From IMG/VR virus record IMGVR_UViG_3300046450_000316, positions 1-39,302 of that record: DNA of 39,302 nt, one strand, 5' to 3'. Source of the DNA: a virus. The stretch's first letter is position 1. Every line of letters starts with the position of its first letter. This document shows positions 6,286 to 25,077 of the stretch, piece by piece. A model generated the notes under the pieces. The model saw only the letters and a list, made by a program, of their open reading frames with translations, did no database searches and was not told where the DNA came from. A program made the position numbers and the translations under genes.

Positions 6286-6304
6286 CTATAAGGGTAGTTA
6301 ATTA
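6286..6304 (-). promoter_or_regulatory. Phage RNA polymerase promoter upstream of ssb
   Basis: The minus strand reads TAATTAACTACCCTTATAG, with the probable start at the G of TATAG (6286). It differs from the copies at 11514-11532 and 15629-15647 at no more than three positions, and resembles the T3 promoter AATTAACCCTCACTAAAG. It overlaps the RNA polymerase stop codon and points at ssb and the replication genes, as class II promoters do in T7. Confidence 0.75.
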
Positions 6305-8743
6305 ACAAAAGAAATACTTAGAATCAAGCACCTCTGTAATGTCTAACTCACCTCTCTTTGGAGGGTTGGGAACGTAATCAACCACTTCCAAAGCTGACTG
6401 TTTAAACTCTTCAAGAGGATCAAATTCTTGATAAAGCTTAACAAATGCCTCTCTTAATAATGAAGCTAATTGTGGTGTTTTTGCGGCATGTGTGCCATAT
6501 GAATCGTGTATCATTTGAAATGATTGTATACCTACATCCACACACATATTTACAGTGAAAGTCAATGCACAAGCATCTAACGAGTGTACAAAGTTAGGTG
6601 CAGAACCATTCACCGATCTTCGATTATCTATTCCAGAATCATCTTCCATCTGTATAGTAGGTTTGATTAACACACCATCAATATGAGTGAATATTTTTTT
6701 CTTGGATATATCCTTGTACTGTTGATGTATTATCATACCAGAAGGTATCCACCATATCAAGGGGTAATTTTGTTTGCTAACTATACTTGATACTTTTCTA
6801 ATCCAATCCATAGCCTCTTTCGCACTAACTACAACATCTGTAATAGCTTGCCATACTCTAGTAGTGATCCAGTTCACAGGTACATATAATGGAAGGTTTT
6901 TATCCCACGGATAGTCCAAACCTTCATATATACACTCTCTCACATACTCTTCTACATAACTTCTACATGAAAACCGAGTTCCACCATAAGGAACCACCAT
7001 AACAGGCCGTTTTGTCATCTTACGATTGATGAGTCCAGAATTTAACCACTTCTCGGCCATTTCATCACCTTCTTCCATCTCTCGCCTCACAGTCCTTAAA
7101 ACATGATCAGCGACATCTTGATATATGTCTTGTGGTTGTTCTTTATTCATAAGATTAGTCGCATGACCACCAACTTTACATCGTAACATCGCTGAGTAAT
7201 GCTGTAACCCATTGTTACTTCCATCTAAGGCTATAGGTAAACTTGACTTGTAACCAAAACCTTCTCGTTTAAATCCTGCCCATTCATGACAGAAAGCTAA
7301 GAATAACCACGGATCACCAACTTTTTTCCAGAAGTCACAGTCTAGTCCGTGTTTAGCTACACCTAGAATCTGTTCTTCATGTTCATATACCCAATCCACC
7401 CTTTCTTGCAAAGTGATTTTATCAACTCCAGCACAATTAGCACCATGTATGGCTAACCAATCAGCTTGCTCTTGGTTCTCAATTGGTAAACTCTTTGAGA
7501 AAGTTAGTAATGCCTTGGCATATTCAGTTCCTTGAGGTGTAAGGAAGGATGATACTGTGTATTTTCTACCTCTGAAGTCTACTTGGTAAGGAAAATGAAA
7601 ACCATCAAACTTAGAAAATTTTTCAGCCATTTTAATTGTACGCATGAACTGTAGTATCTTGGATTTTCTCCTCACGTTCTCAGCATAGCATTCTGAAGCT
7701 ACTGTCTTCCAATCTATGAACTTTTTGTACATCTCTTCATCCATATCTGCTTTCCTCATTCCTTTGGAAGCTGGACAAGGTGGAATAGTGGCTTCAGTTT
7801 TGTCTGGTAATGAGCCAATACTTATGCTATGAGTAGATGCCTCAGTCATTATATCTAACACTTTCTTATTTATCTTCCACTTAGTATTCTGTAGTGCATT
7901 GACACAACTGTACTCCTGTTTCATATCATGATAAGCTAATTCACTAGCTATATTTTTGTTACTTGTCTTGATAAACCCTATTCTTTTTGTTAGGTATCCT
8001 CCACTATAAGGTGAAGTCCATTCTAAGGGTGTACATACCATAGGTGAATAGGCAGGTGAAAGTAATTCTCCCTTGCTATTTATTTTCTCAATCCAATCTA
8101 AAGTAGCACTAGTTGGAAGAATAGTAAGTTCTTTTCTCTTTCTACCTTTAGTCATTGTCACTACTTTAACAAGTCCAGTACCACGTACTAATAAGTCTAC
8201 ACACTTTAAACCTACTTGAATACGTTCTGTAACTGTCCAAGTCTCAGTATGTTCTACATCAATCTTATGTTTACAATGCTTTAGCAATCCATACCTTCGG
8301 TAATGCCGTGATGCTGATCTTTTACCAACTTGTTTCATCAGATAATCGAAATAATGCTTATCTCCATCTCTGTATAAGTTAAACTTCACTTGATCTTCTA
8401 ATGATTGTCCAATCTTAAAAGCTAAATTAGTCAGCTTTTGTGATTTAGATATTCCATCCATGATAGATCGTAAAGTAATGAATGCTGTCACCTCAGAGTC
8501 CAGCATAGCAAGGAAAGGTGCGGCAAGTGCTTTTCTACCTGCTCCACCTTCTAAAGCTTCACCAATGAAAGAATCAATTTTTCGGGAAAACTTATCTACA
8601 CTTTGCTTCATCAATAGAATACCATGCAAAGATGTTGATTCGGAGTTCGTAGTTTTTGCTTCTCTCACTTGTTTACGGAACTTCTCAATTCCGAATTCAA
8701 TCATATCTTCTTCTAGTTTTCTCTGTTCTTCAAATATGTTCAT
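6302..8743 (-). CDS. Single-subunit phage RNA polymerase, T7 gp1 type
   Basis: An 813-residue T7-family RNA polymerase (T7: 883) that would transcribe middle and late phage genes from its own promoters. Visible motifs are VDFRGRKY near 388-395; motif A LPIALDGSNNGLQHYSAML (D507, T7 D537); motif B KMTKRPVMVVPYGG with K578, R579 and Y586 (T7 K631, R632, Y639); and motif C QMIHDSYGTHA with D747 (T7 D812). The C-terminus YFFC resembles the essential hydrophobic T7 end FAFA. The specificity-loop region (about 680-697, KKIFTHIDGVLIKPT) differs from T7, consistent with the different promoter found here. ATG 8743 has AAGGAAGG upstream. It is the last gene of the early region. Confidence 0.98.
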   Translation of the reverse strand: MNIFEEQRKLEEDMIEFGIEKFRKQVREAKTTNSESTSLHGILLMKQSVDKFSRKIDSFIGEALEGGAGRKALAAPFLAMLDSEVTAFITLRSIMDGISKSQKLTNLAFKIGQSLEDQVKFNLYRDGDKHYFDYLMKQVGKRSASRHYRRYGLLKHCKHKIDVEHTETWTVTERIQVGLKCVDLLVRGTGLVKVVTMTKGRKRKELTILPTSATLDWIEKINSKGELLSPAYSPMVCTPLEWTSPYSGGYLTKRIGFIKTSNKNIASELAYHDMKQEYSCVNALQNTKWKINKKVLDIMTEASTHSISIGSLPDKTEATIPPCPASKGMRKADMDEEMYKKFIDWKTVASECYAENVRRKSKILQFMRTIKMAEKFSKFDGFHFPYQVDFRGRKYTVSSFLTPQGTEYAKALLTFSKSLPIENQEQADWLAIHGANCAGVDKITLQERVDWVYEHEEQILGVAKHGLDCDFWKKVGDPWLFLAFCHEWAGFKREGFGYKSSLPIALDGSNNGLQHYSAMLRCKVGGHATNLMNKEQPQDIYQDVADHVLRTVRREMEEGDEMAEKWLNSGLINRKMTKRPVMVVPYGGTRFSCRSYVEEYVRECIYEGLDYPWDKNLPLYVPVNWITTRVWQAITDVVVSAKEAMDWIRKVSSIVSKQNYPLIWWIPSGMIIHQQYKDISKKKIFTHIDGVLIKPTIQMEDDSGIDNRRSVNGSAPNFVHSLDACALTFTVNMCVDVGIQSFQMIHDSYGTHAAKTPQLASLLREAFVKLYQEFDPLEEFKQSALEVVDYVPNPPKRGELDITEVLDSKYFFC

Positions 8744-9603: not shown

Positions 9604-9689
9604 TGGTGAGGAAGGTAGGATTTGCACCTACTATGTCATTCGACATCTGATTTACAGTCAGATTGCTTATCTAGATTGCATACTTCCCC
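9604..9689 (-). tRNA. tRNA-Tyr(GTA)
   Basis: A complete class II tRNA including an encoded CCA. The acceptor is GGGGAAG paired with CTTCCTC (one G-U), then discriminator A and CCA. The D-arm is TGC/GCA; the anticodon arm TCTGA-CTGTAAA-TCAGA gives anticodon GTA. A long variable arm TGTC-GAAT-GACA is typical for bacterial tRNA-Tyr, and the T-arm is GTAGG-TGCAAAT-CCTAC. The tRNA is 86 nt. It sits in the early region between two small coding genes, three bases after the stop of the upstream one, so it must be processed out of a polycistronic transcript. Confidence 0.95.
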
Positions 9690-10384: not shown

Positions 10385-10750
10385 TTGATCCTTTTTTAGT
10401 AGTTCCCCGCCTTTTCCGTGCTGTACTCAGGCTCCACCTACATTCTATATTAGGGATGGACGTAGACACTCTCCCAATAGCTGTAGTTCTCCTTTTATAA
10501 AATGATATGGTTGTAAACTAACCACGCTGGCGTGATTTAAAACCTCCCCATTTACATAACTACTGTACCGATTACAGCGAACCACGTATATTGTTTTCAA
10601 CGTGCATTCTTATGTCCTAGTCCGACTTTCACGGAAAGTACTATTCGTTACAAGTTTTTACATGACAGACACTAGGCGAAAACTCGATCTTTATGCCGCA
10701 AACGCATTGCTTCAACCGATCAGTTTTAGCGGAGTATCTGTCTATGTATT
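10385..10750 (-). ncRNA. Candidate large structured non-coding RNA
   Basis: About 365 bases without any credible ORF on either strand, visibly richer in G and C than the flanking genes. On the minus strand many helices can be drawn: ACTTTC/GAAAGT (10639-10634 with 10630-10625); CCTAGT/ACTAGG enclosing it (10676-10671 with 10621-10616); CTGTA/TACAG (10577-10573, 10567-10563); CACG+TTG / CAA+CGTG (10604-10583); CACG-CCAG-CGTG (10534-10523) inside GTAAA/TTTAC (10555-10551, 10517-10513); GGGA+CTAT with TCCC+ATAG (10480-10445); and a long-range AGTAGTT/AACTACT (10564-10558 with 10404-10398). It does not match tmRNA, RNase P, 6S or tRNA features I know. It ends at the ribosome binding site of the next gene, so it is either a free RNA or an elaborate leader. 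Confidence 0.6.
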
Positions 10751-11513: not shown

Positions 11514-11532
11514 TAATTAACCTCCCTTATAG
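11514..11532 (+). promoter_or_regulatory. Phage RNA polymerase promoter directed against the early genes
   Basis: The plus strand reads TAATTAACCTCCCTTATAG, one of three copies of the same 19-base motif. It is the only one directed rightwards. Probable start is G at 11532. Transcription from here would run antisense through 11676-13400. It overlaps a possible stem AACCTCC/GGAGGTT (about 11519-11550) whose loop holds TTATAG. A perfect SD (AAAGGAGG) follows, but no start codon stands at the correct distance. Confidence 0.65.
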
Positions 11533-11561
11533 TTGTGTGAAAGGAGGTTTACATATAAAGC

Positions 11562-11669
11562 AGAGTGAATCTTACATTCATAAGACATCATCAGATAACT
11601 CCCAGTGTTGGCAAAGTTATTAAGTCTGATCATAAATTAAGGTCACTACTCTTAAAATCACTCTACTAT
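11562..11669. other. Gene-free structured cassette
   Basis: About 110 bases with no convincing ORF, bounded by imperfect inverted arms containing AGAGTGA (from 11562) and TCACTCT (to 11669). Inside, a nested hairpin can be drawn: ATCAG and ATAACT pair with AGTTAT and CTGAT across 11590-11632, capped by CCA/TGG. It lies between the end of the 204-residue gene and the plus-strand promoter at 11532, so it would be near the 5' end of that plus transcript. It could equally be a processed RNA from the early transcript. Confidence 0.4.
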
Positions 11670-12319: not shown

Positions 12320-12409
12320 TAGTAGCGTGAACATTGCTATTAGGCTATTTGCTCTACGAATCGTACAGAAACGTGGCTCTTACGCTCTCCAAGATGATAC
12401 ACGCTACTA
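12320..12409. other. Gene-free structured cassette with perfect 10-bp arms
   Basis: Perfect arms TAGTAGCGTG (12320-12329) and CACGCTACTA (12400-12409) enclose 70 bases that hold a further hairpin around TACGATTCGTA. There is no ORF of note. The element lies between the 100-residue cassette gene and the 204-residue gene and resembles in layout the gene-bearing cassettes next to it. It is not a tRNA: no T-loop or anticodon arm fits on either strand. A small processed RNA is possible. Confidence 0.45.
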
Positions 12410-13078: not shown

Positions 13079-13100
13079 GATTCAATTTTCAAAGAACTAA
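13079..13100 (-). promoter_or_regulatory. boxA-like antitermination element, second copy
   Basis: The minus strand contains GTTCTTTGAAAATTGAA within a 22-base exact repeat of 13367-13388. It strongly resembles rRNA-operon boxA (E. coli TGCTCTTTAACA; Bacillus TGTTCTTTGAAAACT), the NusB-NusE binding site. It directly follows the 3' arm of the first gene cassette and precedes the 5' arm of the second, the position boxA holds in the 16S-23S spacer. Confidence 0.6.
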
Positions 13101-13367
13101 CCGATTTGCAACCGTTGGAAAGCTTTAGATTAATGAGTTTACCAAACTTTTGATTCTATCCTTCTCACATTTAATTTCATTACATCTAAATTTGCGTCCT
13201 CTAACATCAATTTAATGACTTTAGGATCAGCTTTTAATACGTAATCATCTTTAAGAATGCTCCTTATAAGGTACATTGCTGAATGTAACAATTGTCTTTG
13301 ATTCTTATTTTTTCTTTCCATGTCGTCCTTTCAAAAAGTTTAAAGCTTTCCAAAAGTTGCAAACCGG
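13101..13367. repeat. 27-bp inverted repeat enclosing one gene
   Basis: Arms at 13101-13127 and 13341-13367 match at 24 of 27 positions (shared cores TTTGCAAC and TTGGAAAGCTTTA). They enclose one gene, 13139-13321, and each arm touches one boxA copy on its outer side. So the order in the transcript is boxA, arm, gene, arm, boxA. Confidence 0.9.
13139..13321 (-). CDS. First early gene: 60-residue basic hypothetical protein
   Basis: The first gene after the host-type promoter. MERKNKNQRQLLHSAMYLIRSILKDDY... is basic and probably all helical, with no known motif. GAAAGGA precedes ATG 13321 at good spacing. It is enclosed by the 27-bp inverted repeat. Genes in this place in T7-like phages are expressed first by host RNA polymerase and often counter host functions; which one is unknown here. 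Confidence 0.7.
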   Translation of the reverse strand: MERKNKNQRQLLHSAMYLIRSILKDDYVLKADPKVIKLMLEDANLDVMKLNVRRIESKVW

Positions 13368-13388
13368 ATTCAATTTTCAAAGAACTAA
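13367..13388 (-). promoter_or_regulatory. boxA-like antitermination element, leader copy
   Basis: An exact 22-base copy of the element at 13079-13100 (contains GTTCTTTGAAAATTGAA on the minus strand). It begins about 15 bases downstream of the -10 box at 13404-13409, i.e. in the leader of the early transcript, and abuts the 5' arm of the first cassette. Position and sequence match the boxA of rRNA leaders. Confidence 0.62.
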
Positions 13389-13403: not shown

Positions 13404-13431
13404 ATTATACTACTTATTTTAAACATATCAA
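13404..13431 (-). promoter_or_regulatory. Host sigma70-type early promoter
   Basis: The minus strand has TTGATA (13431-13426), a 16-base spacer, and TATAAT (13409-13404), with a very AT-rich stretch upstream that could act as an UP element. It is the best sigma70 match noticed and sits right at the head of the early genes, so it is the probable main early promoter. Confidence 0.75.
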
Positions 13432-13866: not shown

Positions 13867-15522
13867 CTAAATATTCATCCAGACGTTTGATGTCTCTTTA
13901 TACTCTTGACTCATAACACCTTTTACAAATCTTTCAAGCTGTTCATCTTGTAACCTATCTTTACGAACTATCACTTCCATATCTGCATCAGTCGCCATTT
14001 GTTCAACCCAATATCCTACTGCCATTTGAAGAGCGTCTAACCTATCGTCATGTATTAAAGCACCTTTATCTTTTGTAATCCTTGTCATCTGGTGAAAGAG
14101 CATGTACTTAACTTGACTTTCACTTGGATACCGTTGTACAGTCTGTAAATCTTTTTCAATTACTTGAGGATCAATAACAAGTCGATGTTGATTCATCACA
14201 GGTTCAAGAGTGTCTATGATTCTTTTTTCTTTTTGAACATTAGATCTTACTTCTTCCATAGTAACATCGTGTACTTTCCGTAGAACTGGTTTCCACAGTT
14301 CCATAAACATTCCATCACCAAAGTTAGACTCTATAAGAACCAGATTAACCTTGTTTCTTTTTGCTATAACTGCTAGTGTTTGTAGATTATCTTGTTTGTA
14401 TCCACCTTGTAGTCCACCACATTCGGTAACATAGAGAATACCGTTTAACATCTTTACTACAGCATACCCTGTTTCATCTTTACCTCTACCACTAGGATCA
14501 ACTGAGAGTACACTGCCTGTATATTCTAACCATTCTCCTATTTTTGTTTGAGGAGAGTAGTAACCATCACCCGGAAGACCTACATTAGGTAGATCAGTCA
14601 GTTTATTTTCAGGATCTCTTGACCATACAGGCTTTTCAGGAGCTTTATCACCATCTAAAGACATTATAATTAGATCATTCAGCTTTAAAGGGTATTTATC
14701 GGCATCTGACAGGCTTGTGTCTAGCTGAAACTGAAGGTTAAAGCCTGATCTACCATATGATAGTTCTCTTTCTGTTAAATCATCATCATCAAAACGTAAT
14801 GGATCAGTAGGTTCACCTATTTTATCTGATTCCATGATGAATGGAGCTAACTTATCACCATATCTAACCTTTTGTTCTTTTGTTGGAAACCTTGAAGGCC
14901 ATATACGTACTGAGTAACCTCTTTCAGGTAGTGTTTCATAGAGTGACATCTCCGTTTGAGGAGTTCCAAGATAGATGATAGCTCCATTAGGTTTCAATAT
15001 CGCATCAAATTCTTTAACTGCCTCAGACAATTTATCTCTCATTGACTGTGTCATAGAGTTATTAGGAACCTCTACATCGTCTGCTACAATAAGATCTGCT
15101 CGACTACCAGCTAACTGTCCAGTTATACCTACACTTTTCACTGAGGGCGAATGTGAAGCTAATGCTGGTCCTACATCGAATGCTACCTTTGATTGTCTTT
15201 GACCTTCTCTAGATCTTAGATGTTGAAGAATAGGTATTTCGTGTATAAGACGTTGTGTAAAGGTAGAGAAATCATCTGATCTAACTTTTGACGCTGATAC
15301 TACTAAAACTTTATATTCAGGATCAAGAAGAAGTGTATGACAGACAAACGCAGAAGTGATATAACTTTTACCTACTCCACGGAATGCTTCAATGACTCCA
15401 CGTTTAGGTTTATTCTGTAAGAAAGTAGCTATATCGTATTGAACAGGTGTGGGATCAGGTAAATTTAAGTGTTTCCAACAAATAAATAAGAAATTCCTAA
15501 AGTCTTTTAATTTATCATCCAT
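13867..15522 (-). CDS. Terminase large subunit, T7 gp19 type
   Basis: The DNA-packaging ATPase and nuclease, 551 residues (T7 gp19: 586). The ATPase has Walker A AFRGVGKS at 46-53 and Walker B LIVADDVE at 144-151. The RNase H-like nuclease has SVDPSGRGKDETG (D342), VLIESNFGDG (E398) and HDDRLDALQ (D492/D493/D496). In the capsid it would cut the concatemer and drive DNA into the head through the portal. It is preceded by a 25-codon membrane peptide overlapping its start and by a phage promoter at 15629-15647, so it has its own late promoter. Downstream comes the early region, showing that the window crosses the genome ends. Confidence 0.97.
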   Translation of the reverse strand: MDDKLKDFRNFLFICWKHLNLPDPTPVQYDIATFLQNKPKRGVIEAFRGVGKSYITSAFVCHTLLLDPEYKVLVVSASKVRSDDFSTFTQRLIHEIPILQHLRSREGQRQSKVAFDVGPALASHSPSVKSVGITGQLAGSRADLIVADDVEVPNNSMTQSMRDKLSEAVKEFDAILKPNGAIIYLGTPQTEMSLYETLPERGYSVRIWPSRFPTKEQKVRYGDKLAPFIMESDKIGEPTDPLRFDDDDLTERELSYGRSGFNLQFQLDTSLSDADKYPLKLNDLIIMSLDGDKAPEKPVWSRDPENKLTDLPNVGLPGDGYYSPQTKIGEWLEYTGSVLSVDPSGRGKDETGYAVVKMLNGILYVTECGGLQGGYKQDNLQTLAVIAKRNKVNLVLIESNFGDGMFMELWKPVLRKVHDVTMEEVRSNVQKEKRIIDTLEPVMNQHRLVIDPQVIEKDLQTVQRYPSESQVKYMLFHQMTRITKDKGALIHDDRLDALQMAVGYWVEQMATDADMEVIVRKDRLQDEQLERFVKGVMSQEYKETSNVWMNI

Positions 15523-23586: not shown

Positions 23587-25077
23587 TTATCCTAATGCGA
23601 TTGCCATTGCTGTTGCTGAGTTATCTGCGGTTACAATTGATTGGGCTTCTGTTTGTCCAATAGCTCCCCATGCTGAACCATCGTGAACATTAAGTTGATT
23701 AGTTGCTGTATTGTAGTATAAGTCTCCGTCATCATTGTTGGAACTGGGTGCAGAACTAGCTATTCTATACTTGTCTGCAAAATCATTAATGCTACTTAAA
23801 TTGTTTGCAACTGTTTCAAGGTCTGCAATTACTCCAGTAGCTCCAATAGCATCCATATCCGCTATTACTCCTGAAGCACCAAGTAAATCCATATCCGCTA
23901 TTACTCCTGAAGCACCAAGTAAATCCATGTCAGTAATAACTGCCGGAACTGCTAACAAAGCCATATCAGCAATAACCGCTGATACTCCTAATAAGTTCAT
24001 GTCAGTTACTACGTCAGACGTTCCTAATACATTCATGTCTGCTACAACATCTGCCGTTCCTAAAACATTCATATCAGCAACTACGTCTGAAGTAGCTAAC
24101 ACATTCATATCTGTTACTACATCTGATGTACCTAAAATAGCTAAATCAGCTACTACGGCAGAAGTTCCTAAAATAGACATATCTTCTACTACAGCAGCAG
24201 TAGCTAACAATGCCATATCTTCTATTACACCTGTAGCACCTAGAGCATCCATGTCTGCTATTACTCCAGAAGCTCCTAACAAGTCCATATCAGTTATTAC
24301 CGATGAAACAGCTAGTAAAGCCATGTCATCTGTTACTGTTGTGGAACCTAAAATAGCCATGTCATCTGTGACAGTAGTACTACCTAGAATAGCCATATCA
24401 GCTACTACCGCATCGGTTCCTAAGATTGCCATATCTGCAACAGCAGCCGTAGTACCTAACCTACCTATCTCAGTAGATATTCCTGCGACAGTAGCAGAGT
24501 TAGTCTTGTCCGTAGCAGTTAACCATGTGTCCTCAAGATATGTTTTATTTACAGCATCATTAGCACTTGCTGGATTTGCTACATTCTTAATAACTCTATT
24601 TGTACTACTTGTTGAAGCATCCCATTTATTGTCTGCACCAATTACTATTCCTTGTAGAGCTATATCCATAGCTTCCTGAGCTACATGCAGAGTTTGATTA
24701 GTAGAAGAATCTAAGTCTTGTTCTCGTATTACTGATCCCGGTGCAAAGTCTACTTGAGCAGTTGAACGGTTTGAGATACGTTTTATGAGAACTGTACCAC
24801 TTGTAATAGTATGATTAGGTGTAGTTAAATGTACCTTAGTAGGAGTAGTAACATTGTCTACATAAAATAATTGACTTGCAGCAAGAGCATCTACTGAAGA
24901 TCCTTTAGTTCCATCTCCTGCAAGTAAAGTTCCATTTAAATAAACCTGTATAGTCTCGCCATTTGAAGGCTCAAATTTTGTTTTGTTAGCTACTAAATCG
25001 TAGTTATTACTAGGACTAGAACTAAAAGTTACACTACTGTAACTAAATGGTCCTGATATTTCCGCAGTTGTTGGCAT
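23587..25077 (-). CDS. Main tail fibre with T7 gp17-type N-terminus and 12-residue repeats
   Basis: A 496-residue fibre. Residues 1-150 match the T7 tail-fibre N-terminal domain that docks the fibre on the tail (QVYLNGTLL, FYVDNVTTPTKVHL, APGSVIREQDLDSSTNQ, HVAQEAMDIA). Residues about 211-423 are about 18 tandem 12-residue repeats of the type AVVADMAILGTD, likely a long helical or beta-helical shaft. Residues 425-496 form a small end (SSAPSSNNDDGDLYYNTATNQLNVHDG). There is no large receptor domain, so the three following fibre genes may supply it. It is the first gene after the gp16-like ejection protein. Confidence 0.88.
   Translation of the reverse strand: MPTTAEISGPFSYSSVTFSSSPSNNYDLVANKTKFEPSNGETIQVYLNGTLLAGDGTKGSSVDALAASQLFYVDNVTTPTKVHLTTPNHTITSGTVLIKRISNRSTAQVDFAPGSVIREQDLDSSTNQTLHVAQEAMDIALQGIVIGADNKWDASTSSTNRVIKNVANPASANDAVNKTYLEDTWLTATDKTNSATVAGISTEIGRLGTTAAVADMAILGTDAVVADMAILGSTTVTDDMAILGSTTVTDDMALLAVSSVITDMDLLGASGVIADMDALGATGVIEDMALLATAAVVEDMSILGTSAVVADLAILGTSDVVTDMNVLATSDVVADMNVLGTADVVADMNVLGTSDVVTDMNLLGVSAVIADMALLAVPAVITDMDLLGASGVIADMDLLGASGVIADMDAIGATGVIADLETVANNLSSINDFADKYRIASSAPSSNNDDGDLYYNTATNQLNVHDGSAWGAIGQTEAQSIVTADNSATAMAIALG
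23809..24447 (-). repeat. 36-bp tandem repeats in the tail fibre gene
   Basis: About 18 units of 36 bases encode 12 residues each with the pattern xVVxDMxxLGxS. Two adjacent units near 23850-23920 are virtually identical at DNA level, while others differ, indicating recent as well as old duplications. A long plus-strand open frame (23735-24679) arises only from this regular codon pattern. Confidence 0.9.

Follow-up and report, generated by a model that had tools for sequence, protein, structure and literature searches.

A conserved structured RNA in the presumed early region of metagenomic T7-like phages

What is encoded by a 366-nt gap between the genes of a T7-like phage? The window, by which we mean the whole stretch of DNA analysed, comprises 39,302 nucleotides (39.3 kb) of IMG/VR record IMGVR_UViG_3300046450_000316, and the gap occupies its positions 10385-10750. 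It lies between a T7-type terminase gene at 13867-15522 (-), with Roseobacter phage CRP-125 as closest isolate (up to ~63% identity), and a T7-type RNA polymerase gene at 6302-8743 (-), for which Pseudomonas phage LUZ100 was the closest isolate (~38% identity or less). Coding density in the stretch between these genes was 65%, against 98% elsewhere in the genome, and the gap is the second-longest gene-free stretch in the window. Elsewhere, an array of 36-nt (12-codon) repeats was observed at 23786-24460 within an ORF at 23587-25077 (-), which probably encodes a repetitive fibre-like protein. As stated in the first-pass annotation, no credible ORF was found on either strand of the gap, which held just a 51-aa TTG ORF (-) and a 58-aa GTG ORF (+) running beyond the gap edge. 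Its GC content was indeed above that of the flanking genes, if modestly so (41.0% versus 39.0% and 36.9%; genome 36.8%). Folded as a whole, the segment had a mildly unusual energy on the minus strand (z = -1.8, 5 of 100 shuffles being as good); on the plus strand z was -0.8. The case for an RNA is made by the comparative evidence and not by folding energy. From this evidence we consider it almost certain that 10385-10750 (-) encodes a real structured RNA, here called RNA A.

Homologues were located through searches with the flanking proteins and through DNA pattern searches. A core of ~90 nt, at 10402-10487 (-) in the window, was common to eight distinct metagenomic T7-like phage sequences. 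The window and L012 have a long form, ~350 nt in the window, and the other six sequences (L011, L040, L041, L123, L124 and L125) a short form of ~85-130 nt. The initial description of a large RNA of 365 nt was therefore only partly right: the long form is real in two of the eight sequences, but the conserved unit is the ~90-nt core. A covariance model of this core (model R1; alignment A1) recovered all eight at 85.6 to 112.1 bits, as expected since these same sequences had built it, and nothing further in 660 kb of loci or in 28 additional related phage records. Isolated phage genomes yielded no homologue of RNA A or of the other cassettes tried, the core pattern was unmatched in GTDB genomes, and pattern scans for more long forms returned L012 and copies of the window only. 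RNA A was also missing from the close relatives L051 and L052, which retain other cassettes, as expected of an accessory element. Identity within the core was 80-95% over 56 nt; for a conserved early gene in those genomes it was 67-84%.

The first 56 nt of the core aligned without gaps, and variation was found mostly in a single helix. This helix, S1 (10472-10475 paired with 10453-10456, -), is part of a hairpin at 10438-10486 (-) with the layout CUACA.CUAU..GGGA..UCCC..AUAG..UGUAG. Its pairing is GGGA/UCCC in five of the eight sequences, UGGU/ACCA in another two and UAGU/ACUA in the last, so that three of its four pairs were altered on both sides and all were kept. The 3' hairpin GCCU/AGGC (10409-10432, -) varied in length and sequence among relatives, two of the three pairs of its outer stem being altered on both sides, and is followed by a constant GGGGAAC-like end. 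In these helices 100% of cells were paired; none of 500 shuffles was as good, and slid controls stayed near zero. Of the nine differences that separate L040 from L124, six were compensated S1 bases. When nine random substitutions were simulated 200,000 times, a pattern like that of S1 (a stem of 4 bp, three pairs of which change in this way) arose once. Since the S1 base changes map to few branches among the eight sequences, this covariation evidence is strong rather than exhaustive. No frame on the RNA strand was open throughout the core in all relatives, and the substitutions were not protein-like; a leader peptide was rejected. A T7-type phage promoter, considered because CTATTGGGAGA resembles CTATAGGGAGA, was rejected as well, since the window contains CTATTGGGAGA only once and covariation ties its bases to UCCC.

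The outer pairs of the core hairpin, CUACA/UGUAG and CUAU/AUAG, were invariant and are for this reason unproven. A competing, hand-drawn arrangement pairs an upstream AAUAG with CUAUU and adds an H-type pseudoknot; these bases, too, were invariant, so that either it or the nested hairpin may form. One strand of the outer pairs could alternatively pair with the upstream AAUAG and GUAG, so that RNA A could switch between two folds. A candidate pseudoknot between the bulge CCA (10457-10459) and the tail UGG (10434-10436), spanning 10434-10459 (-), was complementary in eight of eight sequences, but invariant. The long-range helix that had been drawn between AGTAGTT and the terminal AACTACT found no support, because L012 has GGGGAACAAAT at that place; for the conserved inner copy GAGAACTAC, GTAGTT is a possible alternative partner.

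The long form (10402-10748, -; homologous in L012) has ends that were set by conservation and not by transcripts: the 5' end near 10748, right after the stop codon of an 82-aa ORF, and the 3' end near the conserved GGGGAAC. It adds roughly 260 nt upstream of the core in the window and 230 nt in L012. The added sequence starts with a strong 5' hairpin, P1 (10659-10748, -; z = -6.8, 0 of 200 shuffles). Its counterpart in L012 is a different hairpin at the same place with the same UAC..GUA closure (z = -2.85); P1 was missing in six of the eight sequences. A hairpin candidate P3, ACUUUC-CGU-GAAAGU (10625-10639, -), was invariant between the window and L012, which is conservation of sequence only, and was not favoured by thermodynamic folds. 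Hairpins P5 and P6 (10563-10604, -) kept their layout in independent folds, with a mean pair probability of 0.93 for P5 and 0.4-0.5 for P6; they read CACG/CGUG and CUGUA/UACAG in the window and, with different sequence at the same position, CUGUCA/UGACAG and ACUGA/UCAGU in L012. Next to the core, 10498-10550 (-) resembles the 3' half of RNA-H, a separate cassette that is conserved, gene-free and located downstream of tRNA-Tyr in L040 (5353-5220, -), L011 (1358-1489, +) and L125 (11889-11768, -). Among the loci searched, this stretch was the best match of the RNA-H profile outside RNA-H itself, a weak one at E = 0.0077, followed by its L012 counterpart at E = 0.7. RNA-H was not found as a separate element in the two genomes with the long form. 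Judged from the sequences, this weakly suggests that two modules, an RNA-H-like one and the core, are fused in the long form.

The covariance-model search against Rfam and the alignment of homologues, both proposed in the first-pass annotation, were carried out. In Rfam 15, the window segment was unmatched at the gathering score and at E up to 10, and in L011, L012, L040 and L124 the part holding RNA A was likewise unmatched with E limits of 3 or 1, save for one chance-level partial match to a pestivirus IRES. This match overlapped the 5' end of the L012 region and scored far under its cutoff. Known families, GOLLD and ROOL as well as any other in Rfam 15, were rejected on this lack of covariance-model support, and the same applied to RNase P-like and group I intron-like motifs spotted by eye. 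Complementarity to tRNA-Tyr was no better than in shuffles. With a core conserved in eight sequences, pairing kept by compensatory changes and no Rfam match, the suggestion of a new phage RNA is supported. GOLLD and ROOL are phage-carried structured RNAs of unknown function which are often located near tRNA genes (PMC12286853). RNA A, too, is phage-borne and near a tRNA gene, and, like GOLLD, it is conserved in its 3' part and variable in its 5' part. However, with ~90-350 nt it is much smaller than the many GOLLDs of >800 nt (PMC12286853). An oligomeric RNA cage is a further characteristic of GOLLD and ROOL. Of the likeness proposed at the outset, the independence and the tRNA-Tyr neighbourhood thus stand, and membership of either family does not.

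What RNA A does may be judged in part from its neighbours. In every genome it comes immediately after a stop codon, the upstream ORF being of an 82-aa family in the window, L012 and L011, of a 64-aa family in L040 and L041 and of a 70-aa family in L123-L125. Downstream, the phrog_624 gene follows in the window and a 69-aa ORF in L012. In L011 and L040 we found another gene-free segment and then tRNA-Tyr, in L041 another gene-free segment and then an 82-aa-family gene, and in L123-L125 gene-free segments or a leader and then an 86-aa-type gene. A tRNA-Tyr (GUA) gene, at 9604-9689 (-) in the window, was present in five of the eight records, near RNA A in the window, L011, L012 and L040 and farther off in L125; the L041 record ends within an apparent further one. 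A riboswitch-like leader had been proposed, and in the window RNA A does end at the ribosome binding site of the downstream gene, phrog_624. Linkage to one downstream gene family was not found, however: phrog_624 follows in the window only, and most relatives have something else downstream, in several cases not a protein gene at all. Since the features differ between genomes, a gene-specific leader is unsupported, and we regard the riboswitch reading as very improbable. Even less credible is a decayed gene or non-functional spacer. The 51-aa (-) ORF does overlap the segment, but the core is conserved, its changes track base pairing, and stops differ among relatives. Very probably, then, RNA A is an autonomous cassette rather than a gene-specific leader; by its placement it behaves like a movable cassette, set beside different genes regardless of the downstream feature.

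Signals in the surrounding region, presumed to be early and probably the first that these phages transcribe, bear on how such an RNA might be made. A sigma-70-like early promoter, TTGATA-16-TATAAT, is located at 13404-13431 (-) and agrees with the consensus at 11 of 12 positions; in L123, the same setting contains two perfect TTGACA/TATAAT sites. Promoter-like matches in the region were not above chance overall (16 found versus 17.8 expected). Just downstream of the promoter we found GTTCTTTGAAAATTGAATC (13367-13385, -), with a second perfect copy at 13079-13097 (-), which we take to resemble the boxA of rRNA antitermination. It is read as boxA-like because of this resemblance and because the 20-mer formed with the leading A has an identical copy in the 16S-23S spacer of an Elusimicrobia genome. 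The 20-mer occurred in just two contigs among the GTDB genomes scanned, once in a 16S-23S spacer; as these two matches are unrelated, they were uninformative for identifying the host. In the window, RNA A is situated downstream of most early genes, ~2.6 kb from the promoter, and no terminator-like site was found after it on its strand. Inverted repeats of 23-31 nt flank each of three successive early ORFs; one repeat is perfect (12417-12442/12778-12803, 26 nt) and two are imperfect (12811-12833/13047-13069, 23 nt; 13101-13131/13337-13367, 31 nt). In six other stretches of similar size, one repeat only reached a score of 16. The repeats are possibly processing stems around each early mRNA.

By analogy with those early genes of T7-like phages that are small and exchangeable, we propose that RNA A is a trans-acting early host-takeover or counter-defence RNA, made by the host RNA polymerase and freed by processing; we give this reading a probability of about one half. 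Judging from the sequence signals, the host polymerase would transcribe it early from the sigma-70 promoter, and the rRNA-type boxA after the promoter may help the polymerase to read through untranslated structured RNA. Processing would then free RNA A from the polycistronic transcript, a step that is needed because no terminator follows it. Acting in trans, it would most likely bind a host protein or ribonucleoprotein via its invariant internal-loop and tail sequences. Against this reading speak the chance-level count of promoter-like sites and the fact that the absence of a terminator fits a cis element equally well.

Two other readings are serious rivals of this proposal. RNA A might be a cis-acting nascent-RNA element that modifies the host polymerase so that neither pausing nor termination interrupts its passage through the long early operon. 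The put RNA of HK022 acts in this manner, alone and on the elongation complex (PMC9378689). Like put, RNA A is structured, presumably transcribed early by the host polymerase and not tied to one downstream gene (PMC9378689), and the boxA-like signals suggest that antitermination matters in the early region. But put acts in cis on early transcription (PMC9378689), and a polymerase-modifying element would be expected near the start of the operon and not ~2.6 kb past the promoter. That close relatives share the early genes but lack RNA A, and that several unrelated RNA-like cassettes coexist, does not fit such a role either, and we hold it to be rather unlikely. To the same degree doubtful is a processing or stability element which punctuates the polycistronic early transcript and protects or separates its mRNAs. 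T7 early mRNA carries RNase III processing hairpins between the early genes, and RNA A is likewise a structured element situated among the early genes of a phage of this kind. Its position right after a stop codon in every genome, the strong P1 hairpin and the long inverted repeats flanking early ORFs would agree with this. The T7 hairpins are stem-loops, however, and a processing site needs a stem and not an invariant core of ~50 nt with conserved unpaired bases; moreover, P1 is lacking in six of the eight sequences.

RNA A is not alone in the presumed early region, which contains several further conserved, gene-free segments resembling structured RNAs. RNA-G (window 12320-12409, -; L051 6796-6892, +; also L040, L041, L049 and L052) contains invariant UCUUGGAGAGC and GCCUAAUAGCAAUGUUC, and four pairs of its closing stem were altered on both sides, all between one type of relative and the rest. 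RNA-D (window 11558-11667, -; L051 6626-6752, +; also L052, L041, L040 and L125) is bounded by AGTAGAGTG and CACTCTRCTT; the copies of L040, L041, L051, L052 and L125 were clearly alike, and that of the window shares mainly the closing stem. A short hairpin, AACCTCC..GGGAGGTT, whose loop region includes a conserved ACAACTATAAGGG, was found at 11519-11549 (-) in the window, 103-150 in L011 and 1310-1263 in L041. Four small conserved segments each have a AGGGUGGG or UGGGUGGG stretch: B (L040 5570-5486, -; L123 3387-3456, +), K (L040 5700-5650; L125 12265-12220), M (L011 1050-1112; L041 657-599) and F2 (L012 2530-2600; L041 138-70). F2 may be coding, as it is inside an ORF in both L012 and L041.

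Phage early regions are usually mined for small host-takeover and anti-defence proteins. One third of the early region described here is gene-free and contains conserved RNA-like segments, at least two of them with compensatory changes. A toolkit of exchangeable, recombining RNA cassettes might replace part of the usual protein-coding early genes in these phages. In that case the new RNA families would number perhaps six or more, RNA A among them; as RNA they would seize control of the host or neutralise its defences, their modules fusing and splitting. We put this forward as a tentative and on balance unlikely idea. RNA A itself has no Rfam family and was previously uncatalogued, and protein-centred annotation shows mere empty DNA at such loci. 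If the segments of this region act in trans, they would represent a new source of RNA-based inhibitors; if they act in cis, they would be a new means of securing early transcription.
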